A stretch of 64,000 nucleotides of DNA. It comes from Bacilli bacterium (GTDB lineage Bacteria > Bacillota_I > Bacilli_A > RFN20 > CAG-826). Under the pieces are notes generated by a model, which saw only the letters and a program-made list of their open reading frames with translations, searched no databases and was not told the DNA's origin. The stretch covers positions 1 through 64,000 of the forward strand of contig JAKSVB010000003.1 of the NCBI GenBank assembly GCA_024408335.1, given 5' to 3'. The position numbers were made by a program, and so were the translations under genes. Below, one piece after another: positions 3,095 to 51,227 of the stretch; the stretch's first letter is position 1, and each line of letters begins with the position of its first letter.

Positions 3095-4099
3095 ATGTCA
3101 GTAGAAACTGAAAAACCACAGCAAAAACGCAATATTTTTGCTAAAGAATGGACAAAATGGGCTGCTTTATGCGCTGCAGTTTTGGCCATTTGCATGCTCT
3201 TTTTACCTTTAATTGAGCAAAAAATCGCCAAAGGTGATGACCCAAGCCTTGTTTACCTTTGGGACTTGTTTAAAGTCCAATCTTTGATGGTAAACCTTAT
3301 TGTTGTGCTTGTTCTTCTTGTTGGAAGCATCCCTCTTATTTTATTTAGCTCAAAAAAGAGTTCTTTAGCGGTTGGCGCAACAATGGCTTTAATGATTGCT
3401 GGTGCTTTGATGGTCGTCATTCCAAGCATCTATCTTGGCGAAACTGGATACAAATCAGCAGATATCAATGCAGGTCTTGTCTTTGGCTTTGCATTCGCTG
3501 TTTTATCAGCAGCGTTCTCCCTTGCTTTCTCATACAAGAAGATGCCTATGTCAATCAGAGACATGGCAGAAGATGCTGTTTTAGTTGCTACATCATTCGC
3601 TCTCAACTTTGTTAAGATTCCTGTTGGCGCAAGCGGCGGTTCAATCAACTTCCAAATGCTCCCTCTCTTCATCATTGCTTTAAGACATGGCCCACTCCAA
3701 GGTCTTATCAGTGGTGGTATCGTCTTCGGTGTCCTTACTTGCTTCACCGATGGCTATGGCTTCACAACTTTCCCATTTGACTATCTTATCGGCTTTGGTT
3801 CAGTTGCAGTCCTCGGCTTCTTAAAAAACAAGATACTCGGCGAAGATCAAAAAGGCTACAACGTCAAAGGCATCATCTACTTAGTTTGCGGCGCAGTCGC
3901 TGCAACCGCTGTTCGTTTAATCGGCAGCTCAGTTAGCTCAATGGTCTTCTACGATTACTCTGTTGGCGCTGCACTTGCTTACAACATCCCTTACATCCTT
4001 CCAAGCGGCGCAATCGCTCTTGCAGTTTTATTGGCCTTATACGGACCACTTCTCAAACTCAACAAGCGTTTTCCAGTTAGTGAAAAGACCGATAACTAA
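3095..4099 (+). CDS. ThiT-like thiamine ECF transporter S component with extra N-terminal membrane domain
   Basis: A 334-aa polytopic membrane protein. From about residue 155 it resembles the thiamine-binding S component ThiT: a GGSINFQMLPLFIIALRHG segment followed by GLISGGIVFGVL. Thiamine specificity is strongly supported by the TPP riboswitch just upstream. ThiT proteins are usually about 180-200 aa. This one has an additional region of about 150 residues with roughly four predicted membrane helices (near 22-40, 65-85, 92-112 and 125-147), of unknown role. The start is set by GGAGG 9 nt upstream. Shared ECF energising subunits are not in this window. Confidence 0.8.
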   Translation: MSVETEKPQQKRNIFAKEWTKWAALCAAVLAICMLFLPLIEQKIAKGDDPSLVYLWDLFKVQSLMVNLIVVLVLLVGSIPLILFSSKKSSLAVGATMALMIAGALMVVIPSIYLGETGYKSADINAGLVFGFAFAVLSAAFSLAFSYKKMPMSIRDMAEDAVLVATSFALNFVKIPVGASGGSINFQMLPLFIIALRHGPLQGLISGGIVFGVLTCFTDGYGFTTFPFDYLIGFGSVAVLGFLKNKILGEDQKGYNVKGIIYLVCGAVAATAVRLIGSSVSSMVFYDYSVGAALAYNIPYILPSGAIALAVLLALYGPLLKLNKRFPVSEKTDN

Positions 4100-44217: not shown

Positions 44218-45140
44218 TCTTTTTGGAATAAATAGTTACTAGCACTTAAGGCAGCGATTGCACCGTCGTTACAAGCGGTTGTGAGCTGTCTTATTTTTTT
44301 GACTCTGCAGTCACCTGCAACAAAGACACCTGGTGTTTTGGTGGCCATGGTCTCGTCGCAAACAAAGAAGCCACGATCTAATTCAACAAGGTTTGCGAAT
44401 CTGTCGTTATCTGGAATCTGGCCAATTGCTACGAATGCGCCCTTGGTTTTAAGTTCCATTGTTTTTCCTTCGTTGGAAGTCCCTTCACGGCCTGCAAATG
44501 AGACGCTTTCAAGTTTCTCGCCATTTCCATTGAAGCTGACTGAGTTCCAGTCGTGATAAATGGTAACGTTTTGCTGTGCTTTTAATGAATCGACAAGAAC
44601 CTTATCGGCGAAGAATTTGTCAAATAGGGTAACGACGTCGACATGCTTTGAGGTCTTAGCTAGTAGAAGGGCGTATTGGAGAGCGCTATTAGCGTCACCG
44701 ATGACCATGGTGTCTTGGCCTGTGTAGAATGCGCCATCGCAAACTGCGCAGTAGCTGACGCCTTTGCCTTTGTAGTGATCCTCACCTTCGATGCCAAGGT
44801 GGCGGTGTTTAACGCCAGTAGCAAGGATGACGGATCTTCCTTTGTGATCGCCATAGGTGCAGTGAGCGACGAAGTCGTCGCCATCTTTTTCGACGGATAA
44901 AACTTCATCGAATTCGGTTTCGACACCTAAATCGACTATTTGGGTGAATAACTTATCTGACCATTCTAAGCCAGAGATTTCTTTGATGGTTGGGAAGTTT
45001 TCGACTCTTGGAGAATCGGCGATTTGTCCGCCGAACGCTTCTTTCTCGATGAGCTTAACACTTCTTCCTGCTCTTAACGAATAAAGGGCCGCGGTCATTG
45101 CCGCGGCGCCTCCACCGATAATTAGAACATCAGGCAGCAT
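44214..45140 (-). CDS. Thioredoxin reductase-like flavoprotein
   Basis: A 308-aa FAD-dependent disulfide reductase. FAD loop LIIGGGAAAMTAALY (residues 6-20), redox-active CAVC (131-134), C-terminal FAD motif GVFVAGDCRVKKIRQL. The nucleotide-binding loop reads VIGDANSALQYA and the following strand VDVVTLFDKFFADK, without the GGGDSA and HRRxxxR motifs that bind NADPH in classical TrxB, so the electron donor may not be NADPH. AAGGA sets the start at 45140, overlapping nrdD by 11 bases. It probably reduces the glutaredoxin-like tail of NrdD. Confidence 0.88.
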   Translation of the reverse strand: MLPDVLIIGGGAAAMTAALYSLRAGRSVKLIEKEAFGGQIADSPRVENFPTIKEISGLEWSDKLFTQIVDLGVETEFDEVLSVEKDGDDFVAHCTYGDHKGRSVILATGVKHRHLGIEGEDHYKGKGVSYCAVCDGAFYTGQDTMVIGDANSALQYALLLAKTSKHVDVVTLFDKFFADKVLVDSLKAQQNVTIYHDWNSVSFNGNGEKLESVSFAGREGTSNEGKTMELKTKGAFVAIGQIPDNDRFANLVELDRGFFVCDETMATKTPGVFVAGDCRVKKIRQLTTACNDGAIAALSASNYLFQKD

Positions 45141-47517
45141 TGCCATCCTTGACCTTTTGGATATAGCCTCTGATGTTTGAAGCGTTATCGTAAACATCAT
45201 AGGAATCACCATTAGGAACTAAGAGTGTTGGAGCATTGGTAATGCCAAATGCATTTGTTGTTTCTTTGTTAGAGACTGCGTCGATTTGTTCGTATTCGAT
45301 GCCTTCTTTATCAAGCATCATCTTTGCCATCTTGCAGTTTGGGCAAGTTGGAGATGTGAAGAGCATGACTTTAGTTACTTTTGGAGCTTCTGCAGCATGT
45401 TCTTCGCAGCATTCGCAGTGTTCTTCATGAGCGTGAGGCATAGCGTTTTCGTCATGGACGTATTCCTTACGATCCTTGAATTCTTGGGTCTTACCTTCGT
45501 TCCAGTTTTTGATTGGACGGTAGTAGCCAGTGATACGTGACCAAACTTCTGCTTCCTTACCACAAACTGGGCAGTTGTGGACTTCGCCAGTGATGTAGCC
45601 GTGATCTGGACAGACAGAATAGGTTGGGGACATGGTGTAGTATGGGAGCTTGTAGTTGACAGCAATCTTACGAACAAGCTTCATGCAGCTTTCCCAGTTT
45701 GGAAGTCTTTGGCCAAGGAATGTGTGGAAGACAGTACCAGATGTGTAGAGGGTTTGGAACTTATCTTCGATATCAAGGGCTGCAAAGATATCGTCTGTGT
45801 ATCCAACTGGAAGGTGTGATGAGTTGGTGTAGTAAGGAGTTGCGCCTTCGCCACCTGCAGTGATGATGTCTGGGTATTTCTTACGGTCGTGCTTAGCAAG
45901 ACGGTATGAGGTACTTTCTGCTGGTGTAGCTTCTAAGTTATAGAGATCGCCATATCTTTCTTGGTAGTCAGAGAGGCGTGTTCTCATGTGGTTAAGAACT
46001 TCGACGGTGAAGTCTTGAGCGTTTTCGTGGGTAAGATCTTGTTTGACCCAACGAGCGTTAAGGCATGCTTCGTTCATACCAACGAGACCGATGGTTGAGA
46101 AGTGGTTGTTGAATCCGCCGAGATAGTGTTTGGTGTATGGGTATAAGCCTGCTTCAAGAAGCTTTGTAACGGTTTTACGCTTGATACTTAATGAACGTGC
46201 AGCGATATCCATCATTTTGTCGAGTCTTGCGTAGAAGTCATTCTTATCTGTTGCTAAGAAAGCAAGACGTGGCATGTTGATGGTGACGACACCGATTGAA
46301 CCGGTGCTTTCGCCTGAACCGAAGTAACCACCTGATTTCTTACGGAGTTCACGGAGGTCAAGACGGAGACGGCAGCACATTGAACGGACATCGCTAGGTT
46401 TCATATCGCTGTTGATGTAGTTGCTGAAGTATGGGGTGCCGTATTTAGCGGTCATTGTGAAGAGAAGTTTGTTGTTCTCGGTCTCATTCCAGTCGAAATC
46501 GCTGGTGATTGAGTATGTTGGGATAGGATATTGGAATCCACGGCCATTAGCGTCACCTTCGATCATGACTTCGATGAAGGCTTTGTTGACCATATCCATT
46601 TCTTTCTTACAATCGCCGTATGTGAATGGCATTTCTTTGCCACCAACAATAGCTGGAAGGTTCTTTAAGTCCTCTGGAACTGTCCAGTCGAGTGTGATGT
46701 TGGTGAATGGAGCTTGAGTACCCCAACGTGATGGGGTATTAACGCCAAAGATGAATGATTGGATACATTGTTTGACTTCTTTGTAGCTTAAGTTGTCGTT
46801 CTTGACGAAAGGAGCAAGGTATGTGTCGAATGATGAGAATGCTTGTGCGCCAGCCCATTCGTTTTGCATGATACCAAGGAAGTTGACCATTTGGTTGCAA
46901 AGTGTTGATAAGTGGCTAGCAGGGGTGCTGGTGATCTTGCCAGTGACGCCGCCTAAACCTTGTTGGATTAATTGTTTGAGTGACCAACCTGCACAGTAGC
47001 CGGTTAACATGCTTAAGTCGTGGAGGTGGATATCAGCATTACGGTGTGCGTCTGCGATTTCCTTGTCATAGACTTGGCTTAACCAATAGTTAGCTGTGAC
47101 AGCACCTGAGTTTGAAAGGATGAGACCGCCAACTGAGTAGGTGACTGTACTATTCTCTTTAACACGCCAGTCTGCGAGTTGAAGATATGAATCAACGACT
47201 TGCGCGTAGTTAAGGTCTGTGGTTTTAAGTTGTCTGATGTTAGCGTGTTTGCTACGGTAATCCATGTAACTGTGTGCAACATCAACATAGCCAGCTTGAA
47301 TTAAAACGATTTCAACGCTGTCTTGGACGTCTTCAATGTTAACGACACCGCTGACGACCTTTTTGTTGAACTCTGCTGTGACACGGAGAGCTAAGATCTC
47401 AATGATTTCCTTTGTGAATTCTTTGTGTTCTGCGACGAATGCTCTTTCAATGGCTCTTTCGATTCTTGATAGATCGAAGTCAACAATGGAGCCATCTCTT
47501 TTTTTGACTTGTAACAT
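45130..47517 (-). CDS. nrdD: Anaerobic ribonucleoside-triphosphate reductase fused to a glutaredoxin-like domain
   Basis: A 795-aa class III reductase making deoxyribonucleotides without oxygen. An N-terminal ATP-cone (residues 1-90) precedes the barrel with CAGWSLKQLI near 186 and CCRLRLDLREL near 380. A zinc site (CPDHGYITGEVHNCPVCG) precedes the glycyl radical loop RITGYY, with Gly at about 664. After a His/Cys-rich linker (HAHEEHCECCEEH) comes a domain of about 80 residues, VMLFTSPTCPNCKMAK, with CPNC at 725-728 and cis-Pro loop NAPTLLV. The fused domain probably supplies electrons in place of formate. Confidence 0.93.
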   Translation of the reverse strand: MLQVKKRDGSIVDFDLSRIERAIERAFVAEHKEFTKEIIEILALRVTAEFNKKVVSGVVNIEDVQDSVEIVLIQAGYVDVAHSYMDYRSKHANIRQLKTTDLNYAQVVDSYLQLADWRVKENSTVTYSVGGLILSNSGAVTANYWLSQVYDKEIADAHRNADIHLHDLSMLTGYCAGWSLKQLIQQGLGGVTGKITSTPASHLSTLCNQMVNFLGIMQNEWAGAQAFSSFDTYLAPFVKNDNLSYKEVKQCIQSFIFGVNTPSRWGTQAPFTNITLDWTVPEDLKNLPAIVGGKEMPFTYGDCKKEMDMVNKAFIEVMIEGDANGRGFQYPIPTYSITSDFDWNETENNKLLFTMTAKYGTPYFSNYINSDMKPSDVRSMCCRLRLDLRELRKKSGGYFGSGESTGSIGVVTINMPRLAFLATDKNDFYARLDKMMDIAARSLSIKRKTVTKLLEAGLYPYTKHYLGGFNNHFSTIGLVGMNEACLNARWVKQDLTHENAQDFTVEVLNHMRTRLSDYQERYGDLYNLEATPAESTSYRLAKHDRKKYPDIITAGGEGATPYYTNSSHLPVGYTDDIFAALDIEDKFQTLYTSGTVFHTFLGQRLPNWESCMKLVRKIAVNYKLPYYTMSPTYSVCPDHGYITGEVHNCPVCGKEAEVWSRITGYYRPIKNWNEGKTQEFKDRKEYVHDENAMPHAHEEHCECCEEHAAEAPKVTKVMLFTSPTCPNCKMAKMMLDKEGIEYEQIDAVSNKETTNAFGITNAPTLLVPNGDSYDVYDNASNIRGYIQKVKDGNAA

Positions 47518-48157: not shown

Positions 48158-49045
48158 TTATTGTCTTGTTAGTGAGTTTAGAATGTGCTCAGCGTATAGC
48201 TTTGCTAAATTCTTTCCTGAGATTTTCTCGATTTCGGTTAAGAAGGCGTTTGAATTAACTTCGCATAGGATCGGTTTTCCTTCTGAGGAGGAAAGAAGAT
48301 CGATTCCGCAGTAGTCTAGCTTCATTATCGATGCGGCCTTTTCCGCCATTGCGATATACGAATCAGGCAATTCTGCTTTCTCTCCGTGTCCGCCTAGCGA
48401 TATGTTGCTTCTGAAATCGTTGTCATTAACTCTCTTCATTTGAGCTTCAACCTTGCCGTTTACCAAGATTAGTCTGTAATCAAAACCCTTGCTTGATGCA
48501 ATATATTCCTGGTAGTGGTGGGCAACAAACTTGTGTTCTTTTTCATAAGAAACGAGTTCGTCCCAGTTATTAAGCAATCTAATTCCTTTGCCAAGGCTTC
48601 CATAGTTTTCCTTGGCGATCATAGGGAAAGAAATCTGTTTTACGAGATTTTTTAAGAAACAGTCACTATCTGAACCGATGTAGTTTAATGGAGCGGACAC
48701 TGTGACAGGCATATCGATGCCGTTATTGGCCAATACGATATGCGTAAGCATCTTATCGTCGCATAGACGAATTGCCTCAGAAGTGTTGAAAAGTCTCATT
48801 CCTTGTTTTGTCAAAAGTTCGGCAACATATAGGTCTTTGTCTAAATATAAAACAAAATCATATTTATCTTTAATGGAGTCTAATATGTCGCCTTTTGAGT
48901 CGATATAGGTAAGGATTTCGGCGTTTGTAATCTGTTTTAAGCCAACGCCTAAAGCATTAAGCTCTTCCTTCATTCGATCGTAGAAGTATGCGAAGGAGGC
49001 TGATTGGTTGTAGGCATTAAGAATAGCAAGTCCTGTCATTTTCAT
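48158..49045 (-). CDS. RimK-like ATP-grasp ligase
   Basis: A 295-aa ATP-grasp protein: N-terminal pre-ATP-grasp half, then the nucleotide-binding region FPMIAKENYGSLGKGIRLL near residue 150 with the conserved Lys and Gly-rich loop, and metal ligands in CGIDLLSSSEGKPILCEVNSNAF near 245. Relatives (RimK, LysX, MptN) add amino acids such as glutamate to a carboxylate; the substrate here is unknown. No Shine-Dalgarno; TAAAAT lies seven bases before the ATG. The start codon is inside a palindrome shared with the divergent nadE promoter. Confidence 0.82.
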   Translation of the reverse strand: MKMTGLAILNAYNQSASFAYFYDRMKEELNALGVGLKQITNAEILTYIDSKGDILDSIKDKYDFVLYLDKDLYVAELLTKQGMRLFNTSEAIRLCDDKMLTHIVLANNGIDMPVTVSAPLNYIGSDSDCFLKNLVKQISFPMIAKENYGSLGKGIRLLNNWDELVSYEKEHKFVAHHYQEYIASSKGFDYRLILVNGKVEAQMKRVNDNDFRSNISLGGHGEKAELPDSYIAMAEKAASIMKLDYCGIDLLSSSEGKPILCEVNSNAFLTEIEKISGKNLAKLYAEHILNSLTRQ

Positions 49046-49049
49046 GACA
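49034..49049. promoter_or_regulatory. Operator candidate 1, TGTCAT-N4-ATGACA, over the ligase start
   Basis: TGTCAT-TTTC-ATGACA is an exact 6+4+6 palindrome. It contains the ATG (49045-49043, minus) of the ATP-grasp gene and its expected transcription start. The same 12 bases recur at 49095-49110. Confidence 0.65.
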
Positions 49050-49052
49050 ACA

Positions 49053-49106
49053 ATTTTAAGACTAACTGAAAAATCTTCAACACATTACATAAAATGTCAT
49101 TATAAT
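49053..49106. promoter_or_regulatory. Back-to-back promoters of the ATP-grasp gene and nadE
   Basis: Minus strand: TTGAAG (49080-49075), 16-nt spacer, TAAAAT (49058-49053). Plus strand: TCAACA (49077-49082), 18-nt spacer, TATAAT (49101-49106). The two -35 elements overlap. Confidence 0.6.
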
Positions 49107-49110
49107 GACA
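49095..49110. promoter_or_regulatory. Operator candidate 2, TGTCATTATAATGACA, over the nadE -10
   Basis: A perfect 16-bp palindrome that contains the TATAAT -10 box of nadE. It overlaps a second inverted repeat, ACATT-N6-AATGT (49082-49097). Its half-sites are identical to those of the palindrome 61 bp away. Confidence 0.7.
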
Positions 49111-49124
49111 ATGAGGAAAATATT

Positions 49125-51227
49125 ATGAATGACATCAAACCAATTACATTATTAAGGAATACAGAGAAACTTAAACAAGAATTAGAAGAGAATGGCGGCA
49201 GGATTTTTATAACCAAAAATGGCCAAAAAGATTTTGTTGTTTTAAGCGATGAAGAGTTTCAAAAACTAAGCAAAAACGATATTAAATCGAAAAACGACAT
49301 AGTTTTTAAGCAATCTGACCCTCTTGGATTTGTCAAAGTTTCTTCGCAATCAATACAAGTTGAGGTTGCTGGCGTGTCCCATAATGTTGAAGAGATAAAA
49401 AGAGCAATCAAAGAAGCAAATGATGATGATGTCAAAATCCTTGTTTTGCCAGAATTATGTCTAACTGGCTATACTTGCGGAGATTTGATTCTTCACGACG
49501 AGCTCTTGGATAAAGCAGAAAATGCCATCAACGATTTGAAGATGTTCTCCAAAAACTACAGCTTATTCTTCGTTGTAGGTGCTCCTTTAAGAAAAGATGG
49601 TAAGTTATTCAACTGTGCTGTTGCAATTTGCAAAGGTGCTATCCTTGGCGTTGTTCCTAAAACATTCATTCCAAACTACGCGGAATTCTATGAGATGCGT
49701 TATTACTCAAGCGCACCAGAAGAAAATAGCGCGATCCACATTTGTGGCGAATCGGTGCCTTTTGGCGTTAAACAGATCTTCGTTGATGAAGATTATAGAA
49801 AACTCAAGATTGCAATCGAAATATGCGAAGACGCATGGGCTGTTGAAACGCCTTCTAGCAAAGCGGCTTTGGCTGGAGCTAATGTCATCTTGAACTTAAG
49901 CGCATCGAACGAAATCGTTGGTAAGGCATCATATCGTCTTAACCTCGTTAAGATGAACTCCTCTAGATTAAAAGCGGCTTATGTTTATGCCGATGCAGGA
50001 GATGGAGAAAGCACAACCGATTTAGTGTTTGGTGGCCACAATATCATCGCCGAAAATGGCAAAATCCTATGCGAAACCCCATTATTCTCAATGAAGAAGG
50101 CTGTTTCTGAGATCGATCTAGACGTCTTGCTAAACGAAAGAAGAAGAAACACATCCTTCGAACATAAATACTGTGAAGAGTTCAAATTCATTAGATTCTC
50201 TATGCCTTTAGAGAGACCTTCATCATTAACAAGAGTGTACAAAACAAACCCTTTCATTCCGTCGACAAAGAATACCGACCTCACAAGAGTCCAATCCATT
50301 TTGGATATTCAATCAATGGGATTGGTAAAACGTCTAAAAACAACTAGACAGAATAAAGTCATATTAGGCCTATCTGGCGGGCTTGATTCAACTCTTGCCC
50401 TTTTAGTCTGCGTTGAGGCATTCAAAAAGCTTTCATATGATCCAAAAAACATCTTATGTATAACAATGCCTGCTTTCGGAACCAGTAAGAGAACATACGA
50501 AAACGCCCTTCTTTTATCCAAGGAAACAGGCGTAAGTCTTAGAGAAATCAACATTGGAGCCAGCGTTCTCCAACATTTCAAAGATATTGGACATGATCCA
50601 AATGTCACAAACATCGCATATGAAAACTCACAAGCCCGTGAAAGAACTCAAGTCTTAATGGACTTAGCAAACGATGAGAACGCTTTGATGATTGGCACCG
50701 GTGATTTAAGTGAAATCTGCCTTGGATGGTGCACATATAATGGCGATCATATGTCAAATTACGGTGTTAATGGATCAATTCCAAAGACACTAGTTAGATA
50801 TTTGGTTGAGGGATACGCAATCATGCACCCAGAAACAAGAAAGTCTCTTCTTGGCATTATTGAGACACCTATCAGCCCTGAACTTTTACCACCTGATCAC
50901 AAAGGTGAGATTGCTCAAAAGACAGAATCGGTCGTTGGACCATACGAAGTCCATGATTTCTATATCTATCATTATTTGAGACACGGCTTCACTCCAAGAA
51001 AGCTTCATTTCATTGCAAACGAGGCATACAAAGGCAAATATAGCAGTGAAGAGCTCAAGAAGTACCTAGGGATCCTCTTCAACAGATTCTTTAAGAGCCA
51101 GTTCAAGAGAAGTTGCATGCCTGATGGCGCTAAAGTTGGTACTGTTGCAGTTTCGCCTAGAGGAGACTGGAGAATGCCTAGCGATGCCTCTAGCGAAGAA
51201 TACATGAAAGAGATCGAATCTTTATAA
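49125..51227 (+). CDS. nadE: Glutamine-dependent NAD synthetase with N-terminal Phd/YefM antitoxin-like domain
   Basis: A 700-aa protein. Residues 1-50 (IKPITLLRNTEKLKQELEE, IFITKNGQKDFVVLSDEEF) read as a Phd/YefM-type antitoxin fold, which binds operator DNA. After a linker, the NadE glutaminase domain starts near 68 with the Glu-Lys-Cys triad at E110 (VLPELCLTGY), K179 (VVPKTFIPNY) and C234 (EICEDAW). The ammonia-dependent synthetase domain has the ATP loop SGGLDS at 417-422 and GTGDLSEICLGWCTY near 550. It converts nicotinate adenine dinucleotide to NAD. The ATG at 49125 is set by GAGGAA. No toxin gene is nearby. The extra domain probably binds the palindromes upstream. Confidence 0.92.
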   Translation: MNDIKPITLLRNTEKLKQELEENGGRIFITKNGQKDFVVLSDEEFQKLSKNDIKSKNDIVFKQSDPLGFVKVSSQSIQVEVAGVSHNVEEIKRAIKEANDDDVKILVLPELCLTGYTCGDLILHDELLDKAENAINDLKMFSKNYSLFFVVGAPLRKDGKLFNCAVAICKGAILGVVPKTFIPNYAEFYEMRYYSSAPEENSAIHICGESVPFGVKQIFVDEDYRKLKIAIEICEDAWAVETPSSKAALAGANVILNLSASNEIVGKASYRLNLVKMNSSRLKAAYVYADAGDGESTTDLVFGGHNIIAENGKILCETPLFSMKKAVSEIDLDVLLNERRRNTSFEHKYCEEFKFIRFSMPLERPSSLTRVYKTNPFIPSTKNTDLTRVQSILDIQSMGLVKRLKTTRQNKVILGLSGGLDSTLALLVCVEAFKKLSYDPKNILCITMPAFGTSKRTYENALLLSKETGVSLREINIGASVLQHFKDIGHDPNVTNIAYENSQARERTQVLMDLANDENALMIGTGDLSEICLGWCTYNGDHMSNYGVNGSIPKTLVRYLVEGYAIMHPETRKSLLGIIETPISPELLPPDHKGEIAQKTESVVGPYEVHDFYIYHYLRHGFTPRKLHFIANEAYKGKYSSEELKKYLGILFNRFFKSQFKRSCMPDGAKVGTVAVSPRGDWRMPSDASSEEYMKEIESL

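Follow-up and report, generated by a model that had tools for sequence, protein, structure and literature searches.

Why should an NAD(+) synthetase begin with what looks like the DNA-binding domain of an antitoxin, and could such an enzyme repress its own gene? The question is raised by the nadE gene found in the window, the stretch of 64,000 nucleotides of a Bacilli bacterium analysed here (contig JAKSVB010000003.1 of assembly GCA_024408335.1). A sequence-only reading of the locus had taken the first 50 residues of the protein for a Phd/YefM antitoxin-like domain standing before a complete enzyme, and had regarded repression of its own promoter as the simplest model. The best explanation, which we consider very probable, is that NadE is both an enzyme and an autorepressor, that is, a "trigger enzyme", with head and operator derived from one fusion. 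In this explanation DNA binding, repression, bridging by oligomers and dependence on ligands are inferred, while the DNA itself documents the fusion and its probable single origin, the selection acting on it, the putative operator, the joint occurrence and loss of operator and head, and the likeness of this operator to that of free antitoxins.

The coordinates originally given for the gene are correct: the open reading frame extends from an ATG at 49125 to 51227 on the forward strand, is preceded by GAGGA, and encodes a product of 700 amino acids. The claim that the enzyme behind the head is complete also holds, as the protein matches NF002730 (NAD(+) synthase) over its full length with 802.6 bits (cut-off 473), and E110, K179 and C234 of the glutaminase are all present together with the SGGLDS P-loop. 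The alignment with M. tuberculosis 3dla begins at residue 67, and 80 named unfused homologues from other lineages start at approximately residue 68 of the window protein, without a Phd-like extension. Thus, residues 1-66 are extra, because these homologues start at about the same residue as the enzyme part. The features of the locus are collected in Table 1. Elsewhere in the window, an anaerobic ribonucleotide reductase-like frame (45130-47517, reverse strand), which adjoins a thioredoxin reductase-like gene, seems to have a glutaredoxin-like segment, KVMLFTSPTCPNCKMAKMMLD, at its end, although this has been judged by eye only.

Table 1. Features of the nadE locus, in positions of the window
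Feature	Positions	Strand	Basis or remark
Divergent RimK-like ATP-grasp gene	48158..49045	-	PF08443, E 2.2e-34; shares a 79-bp intergenic region with nadE
Second exact palindrome, TGTCATTTTCATGACA	49034..49049		Its centre is 61 bp upstream of that of the predicted operator; overlap with the first codons of the RimK-like gene
Predicted operator, TGTCATTATAATGACA, exact 16-bp palindrome	49095..49110		Contains the nadE -10 hexamer TATAAT (49101-49106)
Phd/YefM-type DNA-binding head of NadE, residues 1-52	49125..49280	+	Pfam, NCBIfam and PDB profiles, antitoxin alignment, purifying selection
Variable linker, residues 53-66, where the toxin-binding tail would sit	49281..49322	+	Low identity, higher dN/dS, length varies
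Glutamine-dependent NAD(+) synthetase, residues 67-700	49323..51224	+	NF002730, 3dla alignment, active-site alignment

Taken alone, the head of the window protein remains below the accepted thresholds. Residues 1-72 reach 22.2 bits against PF02604 (PhdYeFM_antitox; E 1.2e-4, cut-off 29.8), and the head scores 19.3 bits against TIGR01552 (phd_fam), just below its cut-off of 20.8. The AlphaFold model of the head shows the expected beta-alpha-beta-beta-alpha order, but with a pLDDT of only 52-59 and without a significant Foldseek match. The homologous heads are more informative: PF02604 matches 18 of 20 of them at E<0.01, with a best E-value of 8.7e-10, and the NadE of another genome of the same genus (G004) passes the cut-off with 37.7 bits. 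When a profile of NadE heads was compared with all PDB sequences, seven chains were retrieved at E<=1, all of them Phd/YefM-type antitoxins, Rv2865 being the best match (E 0.002). Thus, the Pfam comparison that had been suggested falls short for the window protein and succeeds for its homologues, and the identity of the window head is secure only together with them. On these profile matches, residues 1-52 of the 700-residue NadE are confirmed as a Phd/YefM antitoxin head fused before a complete NadE, as had been proposed.

A translation start located after this segment would have refuted the proposal. If the annotation were an artefact, with translation beginning at residue ~60, the head would not be made at all; only the sub-threshold Pfam score of a single protein speaks for this, and the idea can hardly be maintained against the in-frame conservation of the head in about 60 genomes, the dN/dS values near zero within it, and the ribosome-binding site or leaderless-type start that sits exactly before it. 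Between close pairs, dN/dS amounts to 0-0.14 in the head, 0.14-0.87 in the linker and 0.02-0.10 in NadE, and in several of these pairs the head is conserved at least as well as the enzyme part. The head is under purifying selection, the linker much less so, and this selection supports translation through the head. At the window gene, the ATG is preceded by a Shine-Dalgarno sequence. In many homologues the -10 hexamer lies 6-9 bp before the nadE ATG, without a Shine-Dalgarno sequence, which suggests that their nadE mRNAs are leaderless, a prediction made from promoter position. Upstream of nadE in L007, L009, L011-L018 and others, the ATG follows 6-9 bp behind the end of an extended -10, TGNTANAAT.

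A survey of NadE homologues for the same fusion, as had been recommended, yielded 57 fused proteins from four families of the order. Fused NadE is present in most genomes of the genus, the exceptions holding a different, a shorter or no long NadE, and it also occurs in other genera of the same family and in families f3, f5 and f8. In a FastTree phylogeny of the catalytic part of NadE, all 57 fused proteins are placed in one branch, with a support of 100, together with four unfused proteins. The fewest changes of the fused or unfused state that parsimony allows on this tree are three, a count that one gain and two losses of the head would explain. The fusion of head and NadE is real and old, and its single origin, as judged from the tree, is probable. 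Outside the order, the Phd-like extension is absent from the unusually long NadE frames that were inspected.

Other NadE forms were observed in the course of this survey. Four genomes of the same genus (G010, G017, G025 and G032; loci L044-L047) have a NadE frame of 559-577 amino acids without a Phd head, and the match to the glutaminase domain has been lost from its N-terminal half. In a locus from Christensenellaceae (L078), an HTH_3 (Cro/C1) domain (3231-3520, E 5.3e-11) stands in front of NadE, and an HTH-like stretch, recognised by eye, is N-terminal to NadE in genome G172 (L201/L242). DNA-binding domains seem to have been joined to NadE more than once, independently.

Regarding the DNA that the head might recognise, the segment originally proposed as its target, 49034-49110, spans exactly both perfect palindromes of the window. 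The upstream one is not seen in the sister clade L002-L006, and its role as a conserved operator is therefore doubtful. The pattern TGNCAT-N4-ATGNCA has five sites in the window genome (1.35 Mb), two of which flank nadE. A wider regulon of exact palindromes was considered and rejected, the three remaining sites of this genome being inside long coding sequences.

At most homologous fused loci, two or three TGNCA-like modules are found 11 bp apart, with the -10 inside them. A generic search for the best palindrome was uninformative at most homologues, because the operator is imperfect and modular, and fixed-pattern and profile tests were used instead. The pattern TGNCA-N6-TGNTA-N6-TGNCA has 12 matches in 37 genomes of the genus, all but one of them (11/12) directly upstream of a fused nadE. 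A 27-bp operator profile, built from 37 fused loci that lie outside the genus, matches most fused loci within it (shuffle p<1/300 each), and its median score is 15.1 at fused versus -5.1 at unfused nadE genes (Mann-Whitney p=1.6e-7). It has to be noted that, since many of the loci are related to one another, the p-values of the single loci are not independent and overstate the independence of the matches. No convincing match to the profile was found at unfused nadE loci; the two low-p matches among these genes (L196 and L197) have modest scores of 6.7 and 7.8, and appear, by inference, to be located in the coding end of the upstream gene. In the window's own clade a single palindrome of two modules is left at nadE, giving a weak score of 2.3 with the three-module profile, and the fused genes L022, L164, L177, L188 and L202 are also without a complete three-module operator. 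Moreover, the central TGNTATAAT module is also an extended -10, and part of the conservation may therefore reflect the promoter and not an operator.

Nor is the operator found by profile at the unfused nadE genes that lie within the fused clade (L190; L192, L049 and L200). It is thus gone in both lineages that lost the head, head and operator being kept and lost together. This joint behaviour over a deep tree bears on the possibility that the head is a dimerisation or stability tag which does not bind DNA, the palindrome being left over from a promoter or serving another regulator. Such a possibility draws on the lack of binding data and on the coincidence of the central module with the extended -10, but it does not account for the joint retention and loss, for the strong constraint on the head sequence, or for an operator that matches that of free antitoxins, and it is considered unlikely.

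The operator of free antitoxins came to light in viral sequences. Searching them with the window head gave no match, and a search with a related head identified stand-alone antitoxins of the same subfamily on 15 viral contigs (L210-L224). In 13 of the 15, an open reading frame lies directly downstream of the antitoxin, and one of these frames, when scanned, matched ParE_toxin (PF05016, E 3.5e-16). The window head aligns with these antitoxins without gaps over 52 residues, at 31-37% identity, and shares with them P6, I7, L10, T13, T30-G33 and D36; identity is higher for other fused heads (53-57% for L182). The profile trained on nadE loci only detects the operator in front of 12 of these 15 stand-alone antitoxins, the other three having a single palindrome, TGGTATAATTATACCA. 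The presence of the same operator at free members of the subfamily indicates that head and operator were probably taken together from a toxin-antitoxin module, as inferred from these comparisons, and such sharing is the expected outcome if the fusion carried over the promoter and operator of the module with the head. YefM-like genes that stand alone were also sampled across the genus, including two from the window genome; their upstream sequences mostly differ from this operator, which argues for specificity and against general cross-talk. In the window genome (G000), two stand-alone YefM-like antitoxin genes, at C2:31495 and C17:23741 (L243 and L244), are followed by toxin-like frames and differ in their upstream sequences from nadE.

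Taking into account that the closest stand-alone relatives adjoin ParE toxins, and that the window genome contains two ParE-family genes (on C17 and C4), it could be argued that the head is still an antitoxin, neutralising a ParE/RelE-type toxin and so tying NadE to survival. This is very improbable. No counterpart of the C-terminal toxin-binding tail of the stand-alone antitoxins is present in fused NadE, which has instead a variable, poorly conserved linker; no toxin frame adjoins nadE in the window, where its neighbours are the RimK-like gene and an HI0933-like gene; and the ParE-family gene on C17 has its own Phd/YefM partner. With tail and toxin missing, fused NadE does not, as far as can be judged, function as an antitoxin.

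For autorepression by NadE, the explanation preferred here, the following mechanism is proposed. A single fusion would have brought head and operator from a Phd/YefM-ParE module, the linker and NadE replacing the toxin-binding tail. The N-terminal head would dimerise, favoured by the oligomeric state of NadE, and the dimer would bind the TGNCA modules, which are spaced by one helical turn and cover the nadE -10 box. Accumulated NadE would then block RNA polymerase at its own promoter, concentration-dependent autorepression being the simplest account. In phd-doc, the toxin acts as a co-repressor and bridges antitoxin dimers (PMC4803016); the NadE oligomer could take this role, although this is an inference. 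The model of self-repression is supported, in the absence of binding or expression data, by an operator that resembles that of free antitoxins, covers the nadE promoter and is missing at headless nadE genes. A bolder version can be offered only tentatively: the toxin-antitoxin unit of promoter, operator and head would have been captured whole as an autorepressor, with NadE as a co-repressor that senses its amount or its ligand state and whose oligomer bridges operators.

Whether the repressor also senses NAD metabolism deserves separate consideration. In several close relatives (L002-L006, L024 and L026), the glutaminase nucleophile Cys is replaced by Ser (VELSEDI) and a deletion follows the catalytic Lys, and NadE of L033 has VADE at the nucleophile site. 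The glutaminase half of these proteins looks inactive, judging from the alignment, and the fused head has been kept nonetheless. The retention of the head where this Cys is Ser (L002-L006) or the site is degenerate (L033) indicates that its function is not tied to glutamine hydrolysis. It also lends some support to a reading in which the binding of NaAD, ATP, NAD or glutamine would alter the affinity of the head for DNA, as occurs with NAD in NadR, and which has in its favour an architecture like that of the trigger enzymes NadR and PutA (PMC8249747; PMC6800001). This would be a stronger form of autorepression, not an explanation exclusive with it. There are no ligand data. The linker varies in length and is weakly selected, and nothing in it points to tight allosteric coupling; such variability is evidence against a finely tuned joint, and ligand sensing, though possible, is therefore not the favoured reading.

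In the open-access literature, to which the search was limited, no published description was found of a Phd-NadE fusion, of a NadE with a DNA-binding domain, or of an enzyme-repressor built from an antitoxin head. Within this limit, the search agrees with the statement of the sequence-only reading that no NadE of this type had been described. Three types of regulators have been described in NAD metabolism, NadR, NiaR and NrtR, none of them based on NadE (PMC6800001), and the fusion points to a way of controlling the final step of NAD synthesis, in uncultured bacteria, that is unlike all three. More generally, the fusion indicates that a DNA-binding domain and its operator can pass from a toxin-antitoxin module to a host gene in one step, and that the resulting head-operator circuit, as inferred from sequence, has been kept across families of an order of such bacteria.

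Fused NadE can be compared, in the first place, with the Phd/YefM antitoxins (PF02604), such as P1 Phd, E. coli YefM, Axe and Rv2865, which have a similar DNA-binding head, PI[TR]xLRNT...ITKNG...V, and whose operator likewise consists of short cores, repeated at intervals of one helical turn, that cover the -10 box. The short palindromic cores repeated over the own promoter that are characteristic of this family are found at nadE. In E. coli yefM-yoeB, the N-terminal domain of YefM binds TGTACA cores at a spacing of 12 bp, of which the primary one covers the -10 box (PMC7730913), whereas the TGNCA cores at nadE have a spacing of 11 bp. The nearest stand-alone antitoxins by sequence are the viral ones beside ParE-type toxins. 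Fused NadE differs from all these antitoxins in having neither a toxin-binding tail nor an adjoining toxin gene, and in carrying a complete NadE behind the head. The HTH_3-NadE of L078 and the HTH-like form of G172 have a DNA-binding domain at the same end of the same type of NadE, but these heads are of an unrelated fold and rare.

Trigger enzymes include BirA, NadR, PepA and PutA (PMC8249747). What is required of them, an intact enzyme with a DNA-binding domain and a site at its own promoter, is fulfilled by fused NadE, albeit on sequence grounds alone. NadR of enterobacteria is also a NAD-biosynthetic enzyme with an N-terminal DNA-binding domain, but its repressor domain is a different one and its activities are those of an adenylyltransferase and a ribosylnicotinamide kinase; moreover, it is a multi-target regulator in E. 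coli, whereas the NadE operator occurs essentially only at nadE itself. PutA, the proline dehydrogenase repressor, differs in its DNA-binding domain, which is of the ribbon-helix-helix type, in being a catabolic enzyme, and in having a known inducer. Nevertheless, its binding is confined to the stretch that separates its gene from a divergent one, and it is the closest parallel to the function proposed for fused NadE.
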